Shown here one piece after another: positions 44,055 to 55,394 of a stretch of DNA of 64,000 nt. How positions within the stretch are numbered: the first letter of the stretch is position 1; every line of letters starts with the position of its first letter. The DNA is from Bacteroides caccae (GTDB taxonomy: Bacteria; Bacteroidota; Bacteroidia; Bacteroidales; Bacteroidaceae), in NCBI RefSeq assembly GCF_002222615.2, contig NZ_CP022412.2:3348001-3412000 (forward strand). Reading direction: 5' to 3'. The notes under the pieces are model-generated. The model searched no databases. It was given only the letters and a program-made list of their open reading frames with translations, and was not told where the DNA came from. The position numbers were made by a program, and so were the translations under genes.

Positions 44055-47000
44055 ATGAAATACATTGTATATATTTTCCTTTTGTTTCCTATTCTGGTCA
44101 CGGCACAAACTTACAAATATATAGGAATAGAAAATGGATTAAGTAATCGAAGGATATTCAACATTCAGAAAGATGATCAAGGCTATATGTGGTTTCTCAC
44201 CAATGAAGGAATGGATCGTTATAATGGTAAAGATATAAAGCATTATAAACTGAACAAAGATGATAATTCCGTTGCTTCCCAAATACACCTCGGTTGGTTA
44301 TATGCTACTCCGGAGGCAGGTTTATGGGTGATTGGCAGAAAAGGACGTCTCTTTCAATATGAAAAGCAATATGATCGTTTTACGATAGGATATAAACTAC
44401 CGGATATATCGAAAACGATTAGTTATGGTTATGTAGACCACAACAATAATATTTGGTTATGCTGCAATGATTCTATTGTATTATACAATATCAAAAATGC
44501 TCATACATTTCAGTTCCCTAATATACTACACAGCAATATTACAGCCATAGAGCAGATAGATGACAATCATTTCTTTATAGCAACAGAAACAGGCGTGAGG
44601 TATGCTAAACTGGAAAACGGTGCTTTACAAATTATCCCTACCGAGACGCTTGATTATTTTCATACGCAAGTAAGTGTGTTGTATTTCCAGCAACAGCAAA
44701 AAAAATTATATATCGGCTCATTTGAGAGGGGTATTTTTGTATATGATATGCTTTCCCAAGAGATTATCCGGCCTGAAGCAGATCTTAGTGATGTGAATAT
44801 AACCCGTATCAGACCATTAAATGAAACAGAACTATTAGTGGCAACCGAAGGCATGGGCGTATATAAGCTAGACATGAACAAATGCATATTAGAACGTTAC
44901 ATATCAGCAAATTACCAAAGCTATAATGAAATGAATGGTGACAACATCAATGACGTATTTGTTGATGAATCAAAACGAATATGGCTTGCCAATTATCCCA
45001 CAGGAATTACAGTTATAGATTATCGTTATGAAAACTATCATTGGATGAAACACTCTATGGGCAACAAGCAGTCCATTGTCAATGACCAGGTGCACGCTGT
45101 CATTGAAGACAGTGATGGAGATTTATGGTTTGGTACGAGTAACGGCATTAGTCTTTACAATTCGGGAACGGGAGAATGGCATTCTTTTTTGAGTTCTTTC
45201 AATCATCAGCTAAAAGACAAAAATCATATATTCATAACTTTATGTGAGGTTTCACCCGGCATTATCTGGGCAGGAGGCTATACTTCCGGTATATACAAGA
45301 TAAATAAAGCAGATTTATCCGTGGAATATTTCTCTCCTTATTTACTTTCACACATAAATATGCGCCCGGATAAATATATCCGTGATATGATAAAAGACTC
45401 AAAAGGACATATATGGTCGGGAGGATACTATAATTTAAAATGCTTTGATTTGGCAACTAACAGTGTTCGCCTATATCCGGGAGTAAGTTCTATTACAGCT
45501 ATTGCCGAAAAAGATAGTCATAATATGTGGATCGGAACGGCAATGGGATTGTATTTGCTGAATAGAGACTCCGGGAAATACGAATATATTAAGTTGGAAG
45601 CCGGATCGACCTACATCAATACGCTTTATCAAGCAGATAACGGACTGCTATATGTTGGTACGAATGGAGCGGGAGTATTTATATATGATGCACAAAATAA
45701 GAAATTTGAGCATTATATAGCTAAAAATTCCGCACTTGTTTCCAACAGCATTTTTACTATTTTGCCTGAAGTTGACGGACGAATCATGATGAGTACGGAA
45801 AATGGGGTCACCAGTTTTCATACGAAGGAAAAAATATTCCATAACTGGACCAAAGGAGAAGGATTATTGCCTGCCTATTTCAATGCTTCATCCGGAGTAT
45901 TACGTAAAAATAAGAACTTTGTATTTGGTAGTACGGACGGAGCTATCGAACTTCCCCAAAATGTAAAGTTCCCCGATTATGTATATACAAAGATGATATT
46001 CAGCGATTTGAATATTTCATACCAGCCTGTATATCCGGGAGAAGAAGATTCTCCATTGGAGAAAAGTATCAATGATACGGATGTGTTGGAGCTGAAATAT
46101 AATCAGAATACATTCTCATTTAGAGTTTCCACTATCAACTATGATTCTCCGGGAAATGCTCTCTATGCATGGAAGTTGGATGGTTTCTTCGAAAAATGGA
46201 CCGAACCGGGAACAGCCAATCTGATTCGCTATACCAATTTGCCACCGGGAAAATATACTCTTTATGTACGTGCCATTTCAAGGGAAGAACATGATATTGT
46301 TTTTGAAGAGCGTACAATGAGAATTGTCGTTACGCACCCTTTTTGGTCTAGTTGGTGGGCAATCACTTGTTACGTGTTATTAGTAATTTTGGGATTCATC
46401 TTTATTCTACGGGTTATGAATTTAAGAAAGCAAAAGAAAATTTCAGATGAAAAGACGAGTTTCTTCATTAATACAGCTCATGACATACGTACTCCGCTAA
46501 CTCTGATTAAAGCTCCTTTAGAGGAACTGCTGGATGAAGAACCTTTATCCGCCAACGGAATAACTCGTGCAAATACTGCATTAAGAAATGTGGGGACTCT
46601 TTTACGGTTAACCAACAATCTTATTAATTTTGAGCGTGCGGATGTGTATTCTTCAGAATTGTGTGTTTCCGAATATGAGTTGAACACCTATATGCACGAA
46701 GTATATGAAACTTTTTCTTCCTATGCTGCTATCAAACATATTGACTTCACCTATGAGAGTTCTTTCAGTTATTTGAATGTGTGGTTTGATAAGGAGAAAA
46801 TGGATTCAATTCTAAAAAACATTTTATCAAATTCACTAAAATACACTCCGGAGAATGGTAAAGTAAGTGTTTCAGTATCCGAAAGTAATGATTCTTGGAA
46901 AGTAATAATTGAGGATACGGGCATTGGAATTCCATCCAGTGAGCAGAGTAAGTTGTTCAAGCTCCATTTCCGAGCCAGTAATGCTATTAATTCCAAAGTT

Positions 47001-48047
47001 ACGGGTAGTGGCATCGGGCTAATGCTGGTAGGAAAATTAGTTCGTCTTCATGGTGGTAAGATTAATGTGGAAAGTATAGAACATCAAGGAACTACTGTCA
47101 GGATTGTTTTCCCGAAAAGTAATAAGCATTTTCAGAATGCCGGTTTGATTCCACCAGCCAAACCGTTGGAACAGACTCCTGAACTGACGGTTCCCAATAT
47201 TTCTGCCACACCGGTGAATACCGTAGAAACAACAAACTCACAACGTATTCTAATTGTAGAAGACAATGATGAGTTGCGTTCCTATCTGGTCAGTTCATTA
47301 TCTTCGATGTATCACGTACAAGCTTGCGGAAATGGGCGGGAAGCACTAATTATTGCAAAAGAATTCTGGCCCGACCTTATTCTTTCAGATATCATGATGC
47401 CGGAGATGAGAGGCGATGAGCTATGTGTCGCTATAAAAAATGATATTGAGACATCACATATTCCGGTACTGCTGCTTACAGCTTTGGGAGATGAAAACAA
47501 CATTCTTGACGGGATGTCAATCGGTGCAGACGCATATATTGTCAAACCTTTCAACGTGAGAATATTGAAAGCAAGTATTGCAAACTTATTGGCTAACAGG
47601 GCGTTGTTACGTAGCAGATATGCTAATCTGGATATTGATTCGGAACCTATGATACCGTCAGCAAACGGAACCACCAGTCTTGATTGGCAGTTTATATCCG
47701 CTGTAAAGAAAAGTATTGAGGAAAATATGGATAATACAGGTTTCTCTGTCGATGTACTTTGTGAGTTGCATCACATGAGCCGTACTAGTTTCTATTGTAA
47801 ACTGAAGGCGTTGACAGGACAGTCTCCGACAGATCTGATTCGAATTACCCGTTTGAAACGTGCTACACAACTATTAAAAGAAGGTGGACATACTATTGCC
47901 GAAATCTCAGATATGACCGGCTTCTCTGAAAGCAAATACTTCCGGGAGGTATTCAAGAAACATTATAAGATGAGTCCGACTAAATATGCAAAAGAAGGAA
48001 GTAACTCCTCTCCTATTATAACGGAAGACAATTTATCCGATGACTAA
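44055..48047 (+). CDS. Hybrid two-component system sensor-regulator (HTCS)
   Basis: A 1330-residue single-chain two-component system. Signal peptide (about 1-17), then a periplasmic sensor of two seven-bladed beta-propellers built from Reg_prop repeats (for example YMWFLTNEGMDRYNG near 49, LWFGTSNGISLYN near 356, MWIGTAMGLYLLN near 493). A Y_Y_Y domain lies at about 680-755 and a transmembrane helix near 764-785. The kinase domain has the H-box HDIRTPLTL (His near 808) and ATP lobe DTGIGIPSSEQ with GSGIGLML. The receiver has Asp near 1112 (LILSDIMMPE), and the C-terminal AraC HTH (about 1220-1315) has FSVDVLCELHHMSRTSFYCKL. It lies beside an exporter, not a SusC/D polysaccharide locus, so its ligand is unclear. 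Confidence 0.93.
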   Translation: MKYIVYIFLLFPILVTAQTYKYIGIENGLSNRRIFNIQKDDQGYMWFLTNEGMDRYNGKDIKHYKLNKDDNSVASQIHLGWLYATPEAGLWVIGRKGRLFQYEKQYDRFTIGYKLPDISKTISYGYVDHNNNIWLCCNDSIVLYNIKNAHTFQFPNILHSNITAIEQIDDNHFFIATETGVRYAKLENGALQIIPTETLDYFHTQVSVLYFQQQQKKLYIGSFERGIFVYDMLSQEIIRPEADLSDVNITRIRPLNETELLVATEGMGVYKLDMNKCILERYISANYQSYNEMNGDNINDVFVDESKRIWLANYPTGITVIDYRYENYHWMKHSMGNKQSIVNDQVHAVIEDSDGDLWFGTSNGISLYNSGTGEWHSFLSSFNHQLKDKNHIFITLCEVSPGIIWAGGYTSGIYKINKADLSVEYFSPYLLSHINMRPDKYIRDMIKDSKGHIWSGGYYNLKCFDLATNSVRLYPGVSSITAIAEKDSHNMWIGTAMGLYLLNRDSGKYEYIKLEAGSTYINTLYQADNGLLYVGTNGAGVFIYDAQNKKFEHYIAKNSALVSNSIFTILPEVDGRIMMSTENGVTSFHTKEKIFHNWTKGEGLLPAYFNASSGVLRKNKNFVFGSTDGAIELPQNVKFPDYVYTKMIFSDLNISYQPVYPGEEDSPLEKSINDTDVLELKYNQNTFSFRVSTINYDSPGNALYAWKLDGFFEKWTEPGTANLIRYTNLPPGKYTLYVRAISREEHDIVFEERTMRIVVTHPFWSSWWAITCYVLLVILGFIFILRVMNLRKQKKISDEKTSFFINTAHDIRTPLTLIKAPLEELLDEEPLSANGITRANTALRNVGTLLRLTNNLINFERADVYSSELCVSEYELNTYMHEVYETFSSYAAIKHIDFTYESSFSYLNVWFDKEKMDSILKNILSNSLKYTPENGKVSVSVSESNDSWKVIIEDTGIGIPSSEQSKLFKLHFRASNAINSKVTGSGIGLMLVGKLVRLHGGKINVESIEHQGTTVRIVFPKSNKHFQNAGLIPPAKPLEQTPELTVPNISATPVNTVETTNSQRILIVEDNDELRSYLVSSLSSMYHVQACGNGREALIIAKEFWPDLILSDIMMPEMRGDELCVAIKNDIETSHIPVLLLTALGDENNILDGMSIGADAYIVKPFNVRILKASIANLLANRALLRSRYANLDIDSEPMIPSANGTTSLDWQFISAVKKSIEENMDNTGFSVDVLCELHHMSRTSFYCKLKALTGQSPTDLIRITRLKRATQLLKEGGHTIAEISDMTGFSESKYFREVFKKHYKMSPTKYAKEGSNSSPIITEDNLSDD

Positions 48048-48093
48048 AAAGGAGGTAACTTTCTCGTTTTAGGAAAAAGTTACCTCCTTTAAT
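48046..48093. terminator. Bidirectional terminator between HTCS and S-component gene
   Basis: AAAGGAGGTAACTTT (48048-48062) pairs with AAAGTTACCTCCTTT (48076-48090). U tracts are available on both strands. It separates the convergent HTCS and the Fe-S/TonB operon. Confidence 0.9.
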
Positions 48094-48108: not shown

Positions 48109-48621
48109 TTATTTACATATCAGATACTTAATGAAAAGATAACCTCCGAATACTTGCAGACACATCCCGGGAATTCCAATGCGGAAATCCTGGATAGCAT
48201 TATAAAAATTACCAATGTATATCCATTCTCCTAATGTACCTGCTACCTGATAGGCAAATACTACCCCTATCAGCATTATGACAGAAATACGTCTGAAGTG
48301 TTGCGCTGTCCATCCGGCAGCAATAGCCAATAATACGGATTTCAATAAAATTACAGGTAATGTGGCGGGAGCCGGCATACTAAACAGTAGAGAATTTATA
48401 GCCGGTGATAAGACGGCAGTCAGTAAACCGACTTTCCAACCATATTTATAAGCCCCAATCAGTGTAAAGAAGTAGATTGGCAGCCAAGTTATTCCTCCTT
48501 GTGGAATGAGATGAAAGAGTTTGGGAAAAAGGATGTTACCAATGATGAATAACGAGGCTGCCCAATAGGTCTTTACGTTGCTGTAATCCAACGAATAGAG
48601 TTTCACGGTTGTTGTTTCCAT
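48109..48621 (-). CDS. ECF-type transporter S component-like membrane protein
   Basis: A 170-residue integral membrane protein with about six helices (first at 19-37, then LPIYFFTLIGAYKYGWKVGLLTAVLSPAINSLLF near 46-80). Its size and helix pattern, and the 'GWKVGLLTAVLSP' loop, resemble the substrate-binding S components of energy-coupling factor (ECF) transporters, which bind a vitamin or metal and share a common ECF-AAT energising module. No A or T gene is nearby. It is the last gene of the five-gene operon, 12 bases after the TonB receptor, so the two probably handle the same ligand in succession. The assignment is by eye and the ligand is not known. Confidence 0.6.
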   Translation of the reverse strand: METTTVKLYSLDYSNVKTYWAASLFIIGNILFPKLFHLIPQGGITWLPIYFFTLIGAYKYGWKVGLLTAVLSPAINSLLFSMPAPATLPVILLKSVLLAIAAGWTAQHFRRISVIMLIGVVFAYQVAGTLGEWIYIGNFYNAIQDFRIGIPGMCLQVFGGYLFIKYLICK

Positions 48622-48633
48622 ATCTTCATTATT

Positions 48634-50523
48634 TTAAAAATTCACATTAATGCCACCCATAAATGTTGCTTTTGGCATGGGATAGCCTGCATTTATTTCA
48701 TATCGTTGCGCTAACAAATTCTCTCCTTTGACAAAGATATCTGCAAAATGACATATACGATAGTTGCCTCGAAGATTCCATAGAACAAAATTTTCTTGTT
48801 GCTCATGCCCCTTTGTAACGGAGGAATAAAGTCCGCTCACATATTGAAAGCCTGTTGAAATATTCCAACGACCGGAGGTATAGTCCATACCTGCATATAG
48901 TTTATGTTCAGGAGCGGCCAGAACGGGATTTTCCATGTGCAGCCAACTATAATTGGCATAGATGTTCCAATGAGAGTTAATACGATAGCCGACATTGGTT
49001 TCAATGCCCCAGTTTTCAATTTCTCCGGAGTTGATATTCAAAGGAGGCGTCAATCCATTACTCATAATAATATTGTCGCCATTGATGTAGTAAAGGTTCA
49101 TTCCGTAAGACAATGCTCCTTCCAATAAACATTGAGAGTACGAGAACTCATAATTAATCATCTTTTCAGGCTCCAACTCGGGATTGGCAGGAGCAAACAT
49201 ATACATTTCCCGGATAGTCGGATTGCGATAGCCTTTACTTACCATTGCTTTTACTTCCGTATTTTTCGGAAAATGAAATGCCAGACCTCCTTGTGGAATC
49301 CATTCTGTACCGACATGAGAATGATGATCTACACGGACTCCTGCATCCAGAGATAACCAGCTATTTATATCCTGACGAAAGTCAATATACCCTGCAAATT
49401 CATCCATTTGCTTATCTACTCCCGATTTGCGTTCGCCCGTAGCCAGAACTTTATTCCAAGATTCCCCTCCGAAATGTTGATAATCAAATCCTGTTGTCAC
49501 ACGGTTACCCGTGAAAAGAGTGGCACTCTGATACCACGATATACCCAGCATCCGGTCTTTGGAATTAAAATGTGACTTTTGTGGTTCTTCTCCAGTTTTA
49601 TATCCGTCGTTTATCTTATGCCGTCCCCAGTTGTAGAAAAAGCTCAAGGTACCTGAAGTCTTTTCATAATGATTCTCTAAAGCAAACGAAGTCATGCCGC
49701 GAGTGATGCGTGAATCATTGTCGAAAAGCGGAGTTTGAACCGTTCCAGGATTGGAAGCATTGAAATGCGTTACATTTATATCTTCCCATACTTTCCAGAA
49801 AGTACTTAAGTCATAGCCTAGTTTGGCATATCCTCCATATTGCTCGAACTCCATATCGGAACGATGTCCATCCGTCCGGTTGTATGAACCTGTCACGACA
49901 CTGCTGAAACACCCTTTCTTCACCCGATTTGAAAATTCTGTCTGCAAAGTATTATAAGAACCATAACCTACTTGCATATTGTTCTTCACCCCTTCTTCCT
50001 GTTGTTTACGGGTAACAATATTGATAACTCCGCCCATTGCATTCGAACCATAAAGGACAGATGCAGGACCACGTAGAACCTCTACCCTTTCTGCCAGCAT
50101 GGATTGGTAGGCATCTGCTATCGGATGTCCCATTAGCCCCATATATTGCGGGTGACCATCAATTAAGACTAATAGCCCCGCTGTCGGACTACCACCAATC
50201 CCCCGTAAACTCATGCCACCTGCTGCACCTGTAGACACACCATATCCCATAATACCACGACTGGTAGTAAACCACCCCGGTACTTGTTCGGTCAATAATG
50301 GCAACAAGGAAGGTTCATACCTTTTTTCTATCTGTTGTCTATTGACAATGGAAATAGTCATAGGCAAATGGCGTATATCCGTTTCATTGCGTGTTCCGGT
50401 AACTACGACCTCATCAATAACATAATTTCGTCCTATTTGCGTACTGTCTTTTCTGTTTTCTGCCATTCCCGAAATGGACAACAGACTACTGAATAGAAAT
50501 AAACAAACTGTATTCTTTCTCAT
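48634..50523 (-). CDS. TonB-dependent outer-membrane receptor
   Basis: A 629-residue receptor with a signal peptide (about 1-22). The TonB box region and plug are clear: DEVVVTGTRNETDIRHLPMTI (about 34-54), LRGIGGSPTAGLLVLIDG, and VEVLRGPASVLYGSNAMGGVINIVTR (about 150-175). A 22-strand barrel follows and ends in FMGGINVNF (terminal Phe). It has no N-terminal carboxypeptidase-like domain, so it is not a SusC. The length is similar to BtuB and small siderophore receptors rather than glycan receptors. It sits between the DUF1893 and S-component genes with short spacings. The ligand is undetermined. Confidence 0.9.
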   Translation of the reverse strand: MRKNTVCLFLFSSLLSISGMAENRKDSTQIGRNYVIDEVVVTGTRNETDIRHLPMTISIVNRQQIEKRYEPSLLPLLTEQVPGWFTTSRGIMGYGVSTGAAGGMSLRGIGGSPTAGLLVLIDGHPQYMGLMGHPIADAYQSMLAERVEVLRGPASVLYGSNAMGGVINIVTRKQQEEGVKNNMQVGYGSYNTLQTEFSNRVKKGCFSSVVTGSYNRTDGHRSDMEFEQYGGYAKLGYDLSTFWKVWEDINVTHFNASNPGTVQTPLFDNDSRITRGMTSFALENHYEKTSGTLSFFYNWGRHKINDGYKTGEEPQKSHFNSKDRMLGISWYQSATLFTGNRVTTGFDYQHFGGESWNKVLATGERKSGVDKQMDEFAGYIDFRQDINSWLSLDAGVRVDHHSHVGTEWIPQGGLAFHFPKNTEVKAMVSKGYRNPTIREMYMFAPANPELEPEKMINYEFSYSQCLLEGALSYGMNLYYINGDNIIMSNGLTPPLNINSGEIENWGIETNVGYRINSHWNIYANYSWLHMENPVLAAPEHKLYAGMDYTSGRWNISTGFQYVSGLYSSVTKGHEQQENFVLWNLRGNYRICHFADIFVKGENLLAQRYEINAGYPMPKATFMGGINVNF

Positions 50524-50539
50524 ACTTTAGTCTGTATTT

Positions 50540-50959
50540 TTACTCTTTATTTTTGATTCTTTCGAGAAAGCCACGAATCAGCTGCAAAATAGCTTCGGCC
50601 GATTCCTCTTCACTGCACATAGTTTCTACGGGACACCAGCCTGTATGGTCGCGATTCCATATAAAGGGCACTTCCTGTACAAAGTCTACTTTTACATCTG
50701 ATGTCCGAAACAAGTCCATAGCGTTTGAACTGACAACATCTGTATATAACTCTTTTATACCACCTAAAATCATGAGGGCGGCAGCTCCTTTCCCAACTAC
50801 TTTATCAGCAATCAGAGCTCCTTTCAGGAACTCCGGCTCCCGGGTCAGCAAATCGTATAAATCGGCTACTCCGCGTTGGGTAAAAGTGCGAATCTTTCCT
50901 TCGTTGGCTATCACACAGGAATATCCTCCTGTATGTAGTAGATTGATTAATTCTTCCAT
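50540..50959 (-). CDS. DUF1893 protein
   Basis: A 139-residue protein without signal peptide. It starts MEELINLLHTGGYSCVIANEGKIRTF and has GVADLYDLL, then GALIADKVVGKGAAALMILGG (about 45-67), matching the DUF1893 family. A conserved segment near the C-terminus has WCPVETMC (two Cys), then a helical tail. The start overlaps the end of the aldo-keto reductase gene (TAATG). The family function is not known to me. Its cysteines and coupling to a Fe-S reductase suggest a redox or metal role, which is inference. Confidence 0.78.
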   Translation of the reverse strand: MEELINLLHTGGYSCVIANEGKIRTFTQRGVADLYDLLTREPEFLKGALIADKVVGKGAAALMILGGIKELYTDVVSSNAMDLFRTSDVKVDFVQEVPFIWNRDHTGWCPVETMCSEEESAEAILQLIRGFLERIKNKE

Positions 50960-52362
50960 TATAAAGTCCCTTGTTTCAGTTGTTCTACAAATTGGTCTAT
51001 CCGATGCAATTCTTTCGGTATATCAATATTCTGCGGACAATGTGACACACACTGATTACATCCGATACAATGACTGGCCTGTCGGAGTTTGGGCACGCTG
51101 CGATCATAACCGACAAGAAATGCCCGGCGTGCTTTCGCATAATTTTCATCTTGCCCGTTTTCAGGAACATTGCCCTCGTTGACACAACGATTATAATGTA
51201 ACAGTATAGCCGGAATATCCAACCCATACGGACAGGGCATACAATATTTACAGTCATTGCAAGGAATGGTAGGGTATTTCAACATTAATTGCGCCGTTTC
51301 TTCAAGAAATTCTTTTTCTTCATCAGTAAGTGGTTCCAATGGTGAATAGGTACGGAGATTATCTTGTAAATGTTCCATATAAGTCATACCGCTTAGTACG
51401 GTCAATATATCCGGAAAAGAACCGGCAAAACGGAATGCCCACGATGCAACACTGTTTTCAGGACGGCGCTGTTTGAGTCGTGCTACTAAATTATCATTCA
51501 ACTTAGACAGACGTCCGCCCAACAACGGCTCCATAATAATAGAAGGGATTCCTCTTTTAGCCAATTCACCGTACAGATATTCTGCGTCGGTATTTCGGGT
51601 ATTTGTCTCTTTGGCATGTTTCCAGTCAACATAGTTTAGCTGTATCTGCACAAAGTCCCACTTTATTTCATCATGCCGGGAGAGGAGATAATCATAAACT
51701 TCAATATCCCCATGATAAGAAAATCCGAGATTCCGGATACGTCCCGCTTCACGCTCTTTAATCAGGAAGTCGAGCATACCATTGTCCAGATACCGTCCTT
51801 TAAGGGCATCCATTCCTCCCATACCGATACCATGAAGCAACATATAGTCAATATAATCTACTTGAAGCTCTGTAAATGATTTATGATACATTCTAAGTGA
51901 AGCCTCACGAGACCATGTGTCCGGCGAGAAATTGGACAGTTTGGTGGCAATAAAATATTTGTCACGTGGGTGGCGGCTTAATGCAATGCCTGTTGCCTTC
52001 TCAGAAAAACCTTGCACATAAGCCGGAGATGTATCGAAATAGTTTACTCCGTGAGCAATAGCATAATCTACTAATCCATTCACCGCGTCTTGGTCGATTA
52101 CCTCACCGTTACCGTCGGGAGATGGCTTAAGAGGCCAACGCATACAACCGTATCCCAAAAGTGAAACACGGTCACCTGTTGTTGGCGAAGTACGGTAGGT
52201 CATTTTATCAGTAGGTATTTCCCCTTCTCCCGATACACTATTTGATGAGGAAGTACCTTTAGAAGAACATCCGTATAATATGGCTGTTGATGTAGCTGCA
52301 CTGATACCTACAATTTTAATAAAATCTCTTCTGTTTATGTTTTTTTTATTCTTTTCTTCCAT
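50959..52362 (-). CDS. Exported aldo-keto reductase with C-terminal 4Fe-4S motifs
   Basis: A 467-residue protein. The N-terminus combines a Tat-like twin arginine (RRDFIKIVG, Arg11-Arg12) with a lipobox (ILYGC, Cys32), so it is predicted to be an exported lipoprotein. The AKR TIM barrel follows (about 55-345): catalytic-tetrad candidates Asp and Tyr in FDTSPAYVQG, Lys in ATKLSN and His in LLHGIG. The C-terminus has CNDCKYCMPCPYGLDIPA and, near the end, CIGCNQCVSHCPQNIDIP, two bacterial 4Fe-4S sites. AKRs usually work in the cytoplasm with NADPH; an exported Fe-S AKR would take electrons from a membrane donor, here plausibly the upstream NapH-NapG-like protein 19 bases away. Confidence 0.88.
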   Translation of the reverse strand: MEEKNKKNINRRDFIKIVGISAATSTAILYGCSSKGTSSSNSVSGEGEIPTDKMTYRTSPTTGDRVSLLGYGCMRWPLKPSPDGNGEVIDQDAVNGLVDYAIAHGVNYFDTSPAYVQGFSEKATGIALSRHPRDKYFIATKLSNFSPDTWSREASLRMYHKSFTELQVDYIDYMLLHGIGMGGMDALKGRYLDNGMLDFLIKEREAGRIRNLGFSYHGDIEVYDYLLSRHDEIKWDFVQIQLNYVDWKHAKETNTRNTDAEYLYGELAKRGIPSIIMEPLLGGRLSKLNDNLVARLKQRRPENSVASWAFRFAGSFPDILTVLSGMTYMEHLQDNLRTYSPLEPLTDEEKEFLEETAQLMLKYPTIPCNDCKYCMPCPYGLDIPAILLHYNRCVNEGNVPENGQDENYAKARRAFLVGYDRSVPKLRQASHCIGCNQCVSHCPQNIDIPKELHRIDQFVEQLKQGTL

Positions 52363-52381
52363 AATCTCATCTCAATTTAGA

Positions 52382-53896
52382 TTATATAATTCTATGCATC
52401 TGATGTCCTGTTACATAAATAGCACTGAAAGGACGGGACGGACATAGATTCTCACAAGCTCCGCAGCCAATACATTTTTCCGCATTCACAACCGGAATTT
52501 TGGGAGAATCCGCCATATCCGGATCGGAAACTACCATTTGGATAGCACCGGTCGGACAATGACGCGCACAGTTGCCACATTCAACTCCATCGGTCAACGG
52601 TACGCAGTTTTCTTTAATCCATACGGCATGCCCGATTTGAATGGCAGACTTATCAGCAAGGCTAGTCAGATGAATAGCGTCCGTAGGACAGACCTCCGCG
52701 CATTTTGCACATTCAGGACGACAATAGCCACGTTCATAAGACATTTCCGGCTGCATCAAAGTCAACAAATTGCCAGAAGGGCGGAGTACCTGATTAGGAC
52801 AAACCGAAACACATAATTGACAGGCTGTGCAATGCTGTGCAAAATTGCGCGCACTTAATGAACCGGGAGGTAAAATGGGATTTTCCCGATGGGGAATCTT
52901 CTTGTCTTCAATGGTTGCCAGTCCGCCGTCCACTTTCTTTTCCTGTGCTTTTAGTGCGGCGGTGGTTGCGAAGATAGCCGATGCAGAAAGAAAACTGCGG
53001 CGAGCATTGTCTACTTGCTCCGTAGTAACGGATTTAGCTTTGGAGGTAGTTATCATCTCAGGTTCCGCTTCTATTTCGGGGATACGTCTTGTGTATTTAA
53101 TAGCCCCTTTCTTACATTTTCCCAAGCAGTTCATACAAACGACGCAACGGCTATAATCTATTTTATGCGTTTTCGCATCAATACAGGACGCCTTACAATT
53201 ACGTGCACATAATCCGCATCCGTTACATTTGGAAGTATCAATCACCGGTTTGAAGATAGAATATCGGGATATGAATCCTAATACCGTACCTACCGGACAA
53301 ATCGTATTACAGTAAGTCCGTCCATTACGCCATGCCAATATAATAAGTACAATTAGAGTAACCACGGCAATAACCAAAGTAGAAAAACTTTTTATCCATA
53401 CGTCCACTTCATAAAAAGCATAACTGCCGGCCCGTTCGGCAAAGTATGCCAGAAGGTTGTTTCCCCACTGCCAAACCGGAGCGAACAAAGCAGAGACCAT
53501 TCGCCCATACGCGCTATAAGGTGCTATCAGAATTGCCAAAGCATTCAAGCCTACAATCATTGCAATAATAAACACTGCTAAAACGCCATAGCGGAGCCAT
53601 TTCATAGCCGGAGAATAACGGAAACGATTCTTTTTACGTTTGCCGGATACCCACGAAATAGCATCCTGAAATACTCCCAAAGGACAAATGACCGAACAAT
53701 AAATACGCCCGAACAAGATTGTAAGTATGATAAGGAATAATACCACACCTACATTCAAGGCTAATACAGCCGGCAGGAATTGAATTTTTGCCAGCCATCC
53801 GAACCATGTATGCAATGTCCCTGTAAAGTCGAGAAATAACAGGGTGACAAGTGTAAAACACACAATCGCGGCTGTAAGTCTGATAGTACGTAACAT
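52382..53896 (-). CDS. Membrane polyferredoxin resembling a NapH-NapG fusion
   Basis: A 504-residue protein. Residues 1-215 hold about five transmembrane helices with two conserved CxxxCP loops (Cys67/Cys71 and Cys196/Cys200), the NapH/NosR-type quinol-oxidase motif. Residues 224-261 have two ferredoxin sites (CNGCGLCARNC and CVVCMNC-type). After a linker comes a second Tat-like RRSFL motif (Arg299-Arg300) with a short hydrophobic stretch, then four more 4Fe-4S sites: Cys356-366, 392-403, 431-447 and 475-485. The second half looks like NapG, normally a separate exported subunit. It is first in the operon, with a promoter about 110 bases upstream. It probably moves electrons from menaquinol to a periplasmic partner. 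Confidence 0.85.
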   Translation of the reverse strand: MLRTIRLTAAIVCFTLVTLLFLDFTGTLHTWFGWLAKIQFLPAVLALNVGVVLFLIILTILFGRIYCSVICPLGVFQDAISWVSGKRKKNRFRYSPAMKWLRYGVLAVFIIAMIVGLNALAILIAPYSAYGRMVSALFAPVWQWGNNLLAYFAERAGSYAFYEVDVWIKSFSTLVIAVVTLIVLIILAWRNGRTYCNTICPVGTVLGFISRYSIFKPVIDTSKCNGCGLCARNCKASCIDAKTHKIDYSRCVVCMNCLGKCKKGAIKYTRRIPEIEAEPEMITTSKAKSVTTEQVDNARRSFLSASAIFATTAALKAQEKKVDGGLATIEDKKIPHRENPILPPGSLSARNFAQHCTACQLCVSVCPNQVLRPSGNLLTLMQPEMSYERGYCRPECAKCAEVCPTDAIHLTSLADKSAIQIGHAVWIKENCVPLTDGVECGNCARHCPTGAIQMVVSDPDMADSPKIPVVNAEKCIGCGACENLCPSRPFSAIYVTGHQMHRII

Positions 53897-54169
53897 AATT
53901 AAATTGTTTTCTTTTTATAGTAGTTTATATCTATATTACAGATTAATCAAGCACTCATTACTTTTTTAGCATCATATACTTTATTTATACTAATAATTTA
54001 TGCAGCAAATATACTCGATTTTAAATATTCGCAAAGTAGATAGATTACAGATTATTATACCAATATTACAGAATCACTGTTTATAGACGGGCTAAATCTT
54101 TTTTTGTTACCTATTATTCTTTTTTGTAAAAGCGATATCATGATATGAACATCTTATCGTCATTTTGCC
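53897..54169. promoter_or_regulatory. Divergent control region of the Fe-S operon and FucP-type gene
   Basis: AT-rich region. On the minus strand a -7 box TATATTTG at 54006-54013 with a TTTG at 54032-54035 drives the Fe-S operon; its leader is about 100 bases with no strong hairpin. On the plus side nothing except the box at 54170. No reading frame or known riboswitch shape is seen. Confidence 0.55.
54006..54013 (-). promoter_or_regulatory. -7 box of the Fe-S/TonB operon promoter
   Basis: TATATTTG on the minus strand with a -33 TTTG candidate at 54032-54035, 18 bases apart. Confidence 0.55.
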
Positions 54170-54177
54170 TATCTTTG
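54170..54177 (+). promoter_or_regulatory. -7 box of the FucP-type gene promoter
   Basis: TATCTTTG on the plus strand, a perfect TAnnTTTG, 42 bases before the ATG at 54219. It rules out a start at 54165. Confidence 0.7.
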
Positions 54178-54218
54178 TGCCCCGAAGGCAAAGAACGCTC
54201 TTTTTTAATAAACTCACT

Positions 54219-55394
54219 ATGCAGAAATTAGTCAAGAAGGAATATCAGATTCCTTTTATTCTGGTCACTTCCCTTTTCTTTCTATGGGGATTTGCACATG
54301 CTATTTTAGATGTGTTAAACAAGCATTTTCAGGATGTGATGAATATAAGCCGTGCTCATTCGGCATGGGTACAAGTCATGTTTTATCTGGGATATTTCGT
54401 CATGGCTATCCCAGCAGGACTGTTTATCAATAAATATGGCTATCGCAAAGGAGTAGTATTCGGTTTGTTGCTCTATGGTATCGGTTCGCTGCTTTTTATT
54501 CCCGGTGAATACTGGATGTCGTTTCAGTTCTTCCTTTTCTCCCTGTTTGTCATTGCCTGCGGTTTGGTATTTTTGGAAACAGCCGCCAATCCTTATATGA
54601 CGGAATTAGGTGAACGGGAAACTGCCGCCAGCCGATTAAATCTGGCACAATCATTTAACGGATTGGGTTGTATCTGCGGGCCGCTTATAGGAGGTTTATT
54701 ATTGTTTTCGGAAGAAGGTAGTTCGAATATCTCATTGCCATATACATTAATGGGAATCATTGTACTGGCAGTTGCTTTAGTATTTAACAAAGTCCGTTTG
54801 CCGGAGATTACCCATGAAGAAGACACGGATAAACAGGGGCAGGCACAGGGACTCTGGTCACACAAGCTTTTTATTTTTGGTATCGCAGCTTTATTCTGTT
54901 ATGAAATTGCAGAAATCTCTATTAATAGTTTTTTTATTAATTATGTGGTAGATGACGGCTGGATGAACGCCCGCGATGCTTCTGTGATTCTTTCGTTCGG
55001 TGGTCTGGGGCTATTTATGTGCGGACGATTTGCCGGTAGTTGGGTGATGCGGCAGATACGGGCAGAGAAAGTATTGTTCTTTTGTGCTGTCGGTACAGTC
55101 GTAACAAGTTCTTTAATTGTACTGAATCTGGGGATCATATCACTAATAGCTCTTTTCTTGGGTTACGCTTTTGAAGCAATTATGTTTCCTACTATTTTTG
55201 CACTTTCATTACGGGGACTGGGCAATCATACCAAACGTGCATCCTCTTATTTAATGATGTCTCCCATTGGAGGGGCTGTCGGCCCCTTGCTCATGGGATA
55301 TGTAGCAGACCAGACTACAATGTCCTTCTCATTCATCGTTCCGTTGCTTTCATTCATAGTGGTGATGATGTATGCATGGAAAACATTGAGATAA
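54219..55394 (+). CDS. FucP/GluP-type sugar-proton symporter (MFS)
   Basis: A 391-residue major facilitator superfamily transporter with about 12 helices. The opening IPFILVTSLFFLWGFAHAILDVLNKHFQDV is the L-fucose permease/GluP signature. GYFVMAIPAGLFINKYGYRKGVVFG (loop 2-3) and LETAANPYMTELGERETAASRLNLAQSFNGLGCICGPLIGG follow, both typical of this family. The sugar specificity cannot be read from sequence. The start at 54219 was chosen because a -7 box overlaps the upstream extension. It is monocistronic and its stop abuts the stop of the convergent DUF3098 gene. Confidence 0.9.
   Translation: MQKLVKKEYQIPFILVTSLFFLWGFAHAILDVLNKHFQDVMNISRAHSAWVQVMFYLGYFVMAIPAGLFINKYGYRKGVVFGLLLYGIGSLLFIPGEYWMSFQFFLFSLFVIACGLVFLETAANPYMTELGERETAASRLNLAQSFNGLGCICGPLIGGLLLFSEEGSSNISLPYTLMGIIVLAVALVFNKVRLPEITHEEDTDKQGQAQGLWSHKLFIFGIAALFCYEIAEISINSFFINYVVDDGWMNARDASVILSFGGLGLFMCGRFAGSWVMRQIRAEKVLFFCAVGTVVTSSLIVLNLGIISLIALFLGYAFEAIMFPTIFALSLRGLGNHTKRASSYLMMSPIGGAVGPLLMGYVADQTTMSFSFIVPLLSFIVVMMYAWKTLR

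Follow-up and report, generated by a model that had tools for sequence, protein, structure and literature searches.

Why should genes for envelope electron transfer, for an exported redox enzyme and for the uptake of a scarce compound lie side by side? Five neighbouring genes of Bacteroides caccae raise this question. They lie in a window of 64,000 nucleotides (assembly GCF_002222615.2, contig NZ_CP022412.2, positions 3,348,001 to 3,412,000 of the forward strand; by the window we mean this whole stretch, counted from its first letter), in a genome that consists of a single contig of 4.57 Mb. We find that the operon is real, modular and conserved in many Bacteroidales, and that it newly joins envelope electron transfer of the NapH type to uptake genes. 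An earlier note on this sequence knew of no described system with this combination, and none was found in the open-licence papers searched. The five genes, in the order in which they would be transcribed, are:

52382-53896, minus strand: NapH-NapG fusion (NapHG), 504 amino acids, assigned by Fer4 and Fer4_5 matches and cysteine conservation
50959-52362, minus strand: aldo-keto reductase (AKR) with two 4Fe-4S motifs, a lipoprotein predicted to be exported by twin-arginine translocation (Tat), 467 amino acids, assigned by Pfam and residue conservation
50540-50959, minus strand: protein of the DUF1893/TM1506 family, 139 amino acids, with a deaminase-like fold and without an N-terminal hydrophobic stretch
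48634-50523, minus strand: TonB-dependent outer-membrane receptor, 629 amino acids, with TonB barrel and Plug domains; best PDB match BtuB
48109-48621, minus strand: membrane protein resembling the S component of energy-coupling factor (ECF) transporters, 170 amino acids, assigned by a weak Pfam match and its predicted fold

The five proteins and their operon

The five open reading frames (ORFs), which together span 48109-53896, are separated by 19, -1, 16 and 12 bases as calculated from their coordinates, exactly reproducing the layout described in the earlier note. Its family assignments are upheld as well, four of them by Pfam and that of the S component, weak by sequence, by the predicted fold. 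Taken together, the neighbouring genes look like a single unit that would pass electrons through the inner membrane to an enzyme on its outer side and also take up a scarce compound.

NapHG consists of a NapH-type membrane part with two CX3C motifs, a ferredoxin part, an internal twin-arginine segment and a four-cluster ferredoxin, in this order, and Pfam finds Fer4 in six stretches and Fer4_5 in two. Its three best NCBIfam matches are NapH and NapG models, although all scores stay below the curated cut-offs (86 vs 213, 79 vs 234 and 73 vs 269 bits, with models of NapH, NapG and the NapH/MauN family). Among 65 proteins, the window's included, 29 of the 30 cysteines are common to at least 98%, and the internal twin arginine is kept in 62 (R299) and 60 (R300), a segment that fits a predicted export of the last part of the protein.

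The AKR domain (PF00248) is matched at 111 bits against a cut-off of 24, together with Fer4_9. An alignment of 67 proteins, again with the window's own, shows all four positions of the catalytic tetrad (D110, Y115, K141 and H177) and the lipobox cysteine C32 in 67/67, the twin arginine in 66/67 (R11) and 64/67 (R12), and a conserved coenzyme-side loop. The eight Fe-S cysteines, whose conservation had been singled out beforehand as worth checking, are likewise invariant (67/67). The twin arginine, the lipobox and the presence of TatC in the same genome (C1:1771303) together predict that the AKR is a Tat-exported lipoprotein.

The DUF1893 protein scores 167.8 bits with PF08973, far above the cut-off of 27, and D52, K53, G56, K57 and the C109-P110-x-E112 motif do not vary among 34 aligned Bacteroidales sequences. 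Auto-ADP-ribosylation has been reported for this family (PMC8946771, citing Iyer 2011). The best PDB match of the TonB receptor is BtuB, with an E value of 2.7e-14 over residues 37-615, and the receptor fails the curated score of the BtuB model TIGR01779 (130 vs 600 bits). One histidine, H133, is present in all 55 aligned receptors, while H302 is found in 98% and H220 in 85%.

The S component reaches 22.5 bits with ECF_trnsprt (PF12822), below the cut-off of 30.7, and its Foldseek search gave no match at E 0.001. Nevertheless, the predicted structure has the ECF S fold, so that a call weak by sequence is borne out at the level of the model. The top Foldseek match is the riboflavin-binding TmRibU, with RibU, BioY, FolT, ThiT and PanT nearly tied. 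A Firmicutes protein that is 31% identical to a relative of the S component passes ECF_trnsprt at 71.8 bits. Rfam searches of the window and of 12 related loci gave no riboswitch at the gathering score.

Two features may delimit the unit:

54006-54035, minus strand: candidate promoter of the Bacteroides type, TTTG-N18-TANNTTTG, some 110 bases ahead of the first start codon (ATG)
48048-48090, no strand assigned: near-palindromic hairpin terminator between the operon and a convergent regulator gene

The shared upstream promoter proposed earlier may correspond to this match to TTTG-N18-TANNTTTG, which we take to be the Bacteroides promoter consensus and which has no second match between the operon and its divergent neighbour. 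It remains a candidate because matches in the whole window (7 observed, 7.26 expected) are no commoner than chance. Folded on the minus strand, the terminator hairpin has an energy of -24.9 kcal/mol (z -7.5), equalled by none of 200 shuffles. The operon is flanked by a convergent hybrid two-component regulator at 44055-48047, with a related regulator downstream in several close Bacteroides loci, and by a divergent FucP-like sugar symporter at 54165-55394.

Linkage and modularity among relatives

Synteny was scored in 80 named loci, kept from 127 DUF1893 relatives and covering up to 8 kb on each side, where a locus truncated by the end of its contig was scored as a miss; in one of them, L064, the contig ends inside the AKR. 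NapHG and AKR are present in 65/80 loci, the S component in 54, TonB in 17 and all five genes in 12, so the arrangement is not confined to this strain. DUF1893 stands with none of the other four in five loci, two of which (L077 and L078) have less than 1 kb upstream. Among the 54 loci with an S component, 48 hold NapHG and/or AKR and 15 hold TonB.

Co-occurrence across genomes is strong. Among 301 genomes of the family, 78 carry DUF1893 and 112 the S component; in wider samples, DUF1893 turned up in 1 of 296 genomes taken from across the phylum and the S component in 37 of 344 from the order. The linkage of DUF1893 with the S component exceeds chance: the latter is found in 73/78 genomes with DUF1893 vs 39/223 without it (p 1e-34, n=301, not corrected for kinship). 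The S component and the TonB receptor meet in 25/37 genomes (p 4e-10, n=344, likewise uncorrected). At the scale of the locus, an S component is found no more than 5 kb away from 22 of 29 DUF1893 places in a subset of 101 genomes, and from 17 of 27 TonB places in the 25 genomes that encode TonB as well as the S component. AKR places number 90 in 71 of the 101 genomes, with 22 near an S component, 21 near DUF1893 and 17 near both. TatC, for its part, is encoded by 237 of the 301 family genomes, including 77/78 with DUF1893 and 110/112 with the S component. Of the 80 anchored loci, 16 also contain a TatC gene, which usually follows the S component or DUF1893 (one member was checked with Pfam), and at least 29 of the 90 AKR places have one nearby. 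The recurrent linkage of the S component with redox genes and with TonB is shown here, alongside the anatomy of the operon, its conserved catalytic and cluster residues and its Tat signals.

The genes nevertheless combine in more than one way, as a second operon of the same genome illustrates:

C1:3226907-3231679 (L003:6908-11680), outside the window, minus strand: paralogous operon with DUF169, S component, Tat-DUF362, NapHG and patatin

Its S component is 61% identical to the one in the window, and this operon, too, has no assigned function. Elsewhere, the S component is found with TonB-DUF362-NapHG (L241, L246), with NapHG-AKR-TonB and no DUF1893 (L164, L165, L235, L238), with TonB and neither NapHG nor AKR (L159, L172 and L180, the last a contig of 5.8 kb) and with TatC (L175, L178). 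In L003, L241 and L246, NapHG stays with the S component and it is the exported enzyme that differs. The prospect raised in the earlier note, that the TonB and S-component genes might sit mostly with an unrelated partner, applies in part, in that both recur with DUF362-NapHG instead. What emerges is a free-standing redox pair and an uptake pair that are frequently joined.

Several variants of the locus deserve mention. A Fe/Mn superoxide dismutase with a signal-peptide-like start lies between DUF1893 and the S component in 4/80 loci (L062, L096, L102 and L107; Pfam check of one), and an unassigned 208-residue lipoprotein-like gene is inserted in the operon in eight; both insertions belong to Alistipes/Rikenellaceae. 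In Subdoligranulum variabile (L263:4633-6522), a domain like this lipoprotein, joined to a nucleoside-kinase-like part, precedes a Firmicutes S component. DUF1893 and TonB share one ORF in three of the 80 anchored loci (L058:7998-10310, L064:924-3209 and L070:7059-9506) and in three of 40 loci around TonB relatives, with one locus common to both sets (the others are L244:7556-9841 and L245:7782-10058). A signal-peptide-like stretch separates the two parts in L058, and such single-frame ORFs could be a real fusion or reflect an internal start. In L232:12675-14603, AKR and DUF1893 share an ORF of 643 residues which, if real, would export DUF1893 from the cytoplasm together with the Tat-AKR.

A possible role and its rivals

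What could such a unit do? We infer the following steps from the protein families, including the direction of flow, the ligand, the electron donor and the role and site of DUF1893. Menaquinol would give electrons to the NapH part, from which they would pass via ferredoxin clusters to the NapG part, set in the periplasm by the internal twin-arginine segment, and on to the pair of 4Fe-4S clusters in the Tat-exported AKR. The TonB receptor would bring a scarce ligand, probably a small chelate or a metal-organic cofactor, into the periplasm, where the AKR, or the DUF362 protein in the sister operons, would reduce or rearrange it. A solitary S component would then pass the product across the inner membrane, and DUF1893 might bind or process it. 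That the operon is an envelope unit coupling electron transfer to uptake in this manner, through capture, reduction or rearrangement outside and import, is a reading that we favour tentatively and with somewhat less than even confidence. The capture, reduction and import suggested in the earlier note are partly supported by the layout of the operon, by the fit of the families from NapHG to Tat-AKR, by synteny that reaches far past this strain and by the recurrence of TonB with the S component; as a whole, the scheme is plausible.

A number of observations weigh against this coupling. EcfT/CbiQ (PF02361) was not found in the B. caccae genome at E 0.001, in a search whose control gave a signal in 10/14, so the S component would be solitary and cannot be part of a standard ECF importer; solitary S proteins exist. 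The AKRs known so far depend on NAD(P)H, a coenzyme that the periplasm does not supply, and it is hard to see how electrons from the Fe-S clusters would get into the AKR active site with no flavin to mediate. The compartment of DUF1893 is ambiguous, since it precedes the signal-peptide-like stretch in L058 yet follows the Tat-AKR in L232. A tight five-part machine would hardly be complete in just 12/80 loci, and in the 63 that lack TonB import would need another receptor. Moreover, 64 of the 90 AKR places have neither an S component nor DUF1893 within 5 kb, and 46 are near neither of these nor a listed TatC. Parabacteroides distasonis carries NapHG-AKR-AKR-NapHG, two free-standing pairs with no S component, DUF1893 or receptor of the window's TonB family in the surrounding 24 kb, where two other TonB-linked receptors are annotated. 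The redox pair thus has a life of its own.

These isolated AKR places and the P. distasonis pairs also favour a simpler account, in which two modules share a promoter: NapHG-AKR would be a general Tat-dependent envelope reductase, acting for instance on damaged or toxic carbonyls, and TonB with the S component would serve a separate uptake. The superoxide dismutase with its signal-peptide-like start and the loci in which TonB and the S component lack NapHG and AKR (including the short contig L180) are consistent with this division. However, promoter sharing does not predict that the S component should meet NapHG again with DUF362, in the same genome and elsewhere, nor that NapHG-AKR-TonB-S component should recur without DUF1893 in four loci, and we regard two unconnected modules as somewhat unlikely.

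A further account concerns the ligand. It holds that the operon acquires nickel or another metal, with TonB taking a metal chelate, the envelope redox enzymes freeing or reducing the metal and the S component passing it inward. Around 40 relatives of the receptor, a NikR-like gene lies directly upstream of TonB in 14 loci (L214, L215, L216, L219, L220, L221, L224, L226, L227, L229, L230, L231, L249 and L253); the same loci hold NapHG in 10 cases, the S component in 8, DUF362 in 6, FmdE in 5 and TatC in 4. NikR_C passes its Pfam cut-off in all three linked NikR tested, and the nickel site of three histidines and a cysteine, compared by eye with the E. coli NikR sequence, is kept in 7/14 and altered in 7/14. 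FmdE follows TonB in its five loci, and in the two tested (L224:6761-8230 and L225:9926-11365) it is fused to a nucleoside-hydrolase domain behind a signal-peptide-like start. It also follows the S component in L152, where TonB comes next, and in L155, before a gene of the prismane/CO-dehydrogenase family. Together with the conserved receptor histidines, these neighbours point to a metal, as do the reports that most FmdE genes adjoin metal-ion transporter genes (PMC2954224), that NikR, TonB and nickel transporter genes stand together in Caldithrix (PMC5317091) and that DUF362 belongs to the same Pfam clan as LarA, a nickel enzyme (PMC11770544).

Metal acquisition fits the B. caccae operon less well. 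Neither NikR_C nor the LarA N domain was found in its genome, and no NikR-like gene occurs in the window operon, the 80 DUF1893 loci or 40 S-component regions. The metal site is altered in half of the linked NikR, and those with replaced nickel-site histidines may sense something other than nickel. In a tree of 55 receptors, a branch with 99/98 support separates 29/30 receptors linked to redox or S-component genes from 13/14 linked to NikR, so the ligand may have changed. A metal chelate is our best guess for the ligand of the TonB receptor family and a possible ligand for the window operon, for which we consider metal acquisition as the overall account unlikely.

By analogy with Listeria, where an ECF-type exporter supplies flavin for envelope flavoproteins (PMC9973259), the S component might instead work outward and provide the exported AKR with flavin or a nicotinamide nucleotide; its company is NapHG and/or AKR in 48/54 loci vs TonB in 15, its top structural match binds riboflavin, and an AKR that keeps its whole hydride-transfer tetrad and coenzyme-side loop should carry nicotinamide. 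This is improbable, however, given that the exporter in Listeria works with ECF ATPases and a T subunit, the latter not found in the B. caccae genome, that Pfam finds no domain binding flavin mononucleotide (FMN) in the operon proteins, that five S-component folds match nearly equally and that TonB-S component pairs exist without redox genes.

In its boldest form, the coupling of electron transfer to uptake would amount to a quinol-driven machine in which TonB takes a metal-organic chelate or cofactor, nickel-like because the receptor's relatives are linked to NikR; an AKR with a locked-in nicotinamide refilled through NapHG, or DUF362, converts it, and the solitary S component imports it for DUF1893. 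We think it improbable that all of this will hold. We know of no other anaerobic envelope pathway in which respiratory electrons go into AKR-based micronutrient salvage. If menaquinol electrons are indeed spent outside the cytoplasm in preparing a nutrient, this would add a new role to anaerobic respiration in the gut. Three gut Bacteroidales families that have no assigned role here, namely Fe-S AKRs with a Tat signal, DUF1893 and DUF362, are linked with each other, with an unassigned S component and with one particular TonB receptor; for each, this supplies a partner to test and a common ligand to search for. A solitary S component next to redox genes is also relevant to the question of how these proteins function in the absence of an ATPase.

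Comparison with known systems

On the uptake side, the receptor resembles BtuB in a near-full-length fold match, but it falls below the TIGR01779 cut-off and has no cobalamin riboswitch in the window or the 12 related loci. The NikR-linked receptors are 38-48% identical to it but sit mostly on the other branch of the tree. ECF S components such as RibU, BioY, FolT, ThiT and PanT differ from the one described here, which has no EcfT/CbiQ, a sub-cut-off sequence score and no riboswitch. The DUF1893 protein shares its Pfam family and fold with TM1506 of Thermotoga maritima (1vk9) and with a Borrelia protein (9e9a), with 21% identity to 1vk9 over the fold match.

On the electron-transfer side, the flavin exporter EetB/FmnA of Listeria (PMC9973259) likewise has an S-type subunit coded beside envelope electron-transfer genes, but it uses ECF T and ATPase subunits, while the present operon has no flavinylation gene. 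The NapG/NapH quinol dehydrogenase of periplasmic nitrate reductase shares the NapH-type membrane ferredoxin followed by the NapG-type four-cluster part, in the right order; here the two form one fused protein, score far below the cut-offs and are partnered with an AKR rather than a molybdoenzyme. NapH-like extracytosolic electron-transfer systems (PMC8238504) have been defined in flavinylation gene clusters, whereas the present operon lacks an FMN-binding domain, and the main text of that paper contains no word starting with "aldo". The operon nonetheless shares with these systems the same modular pairing of a NapH-like protein with varied envelope oxidoreductases.

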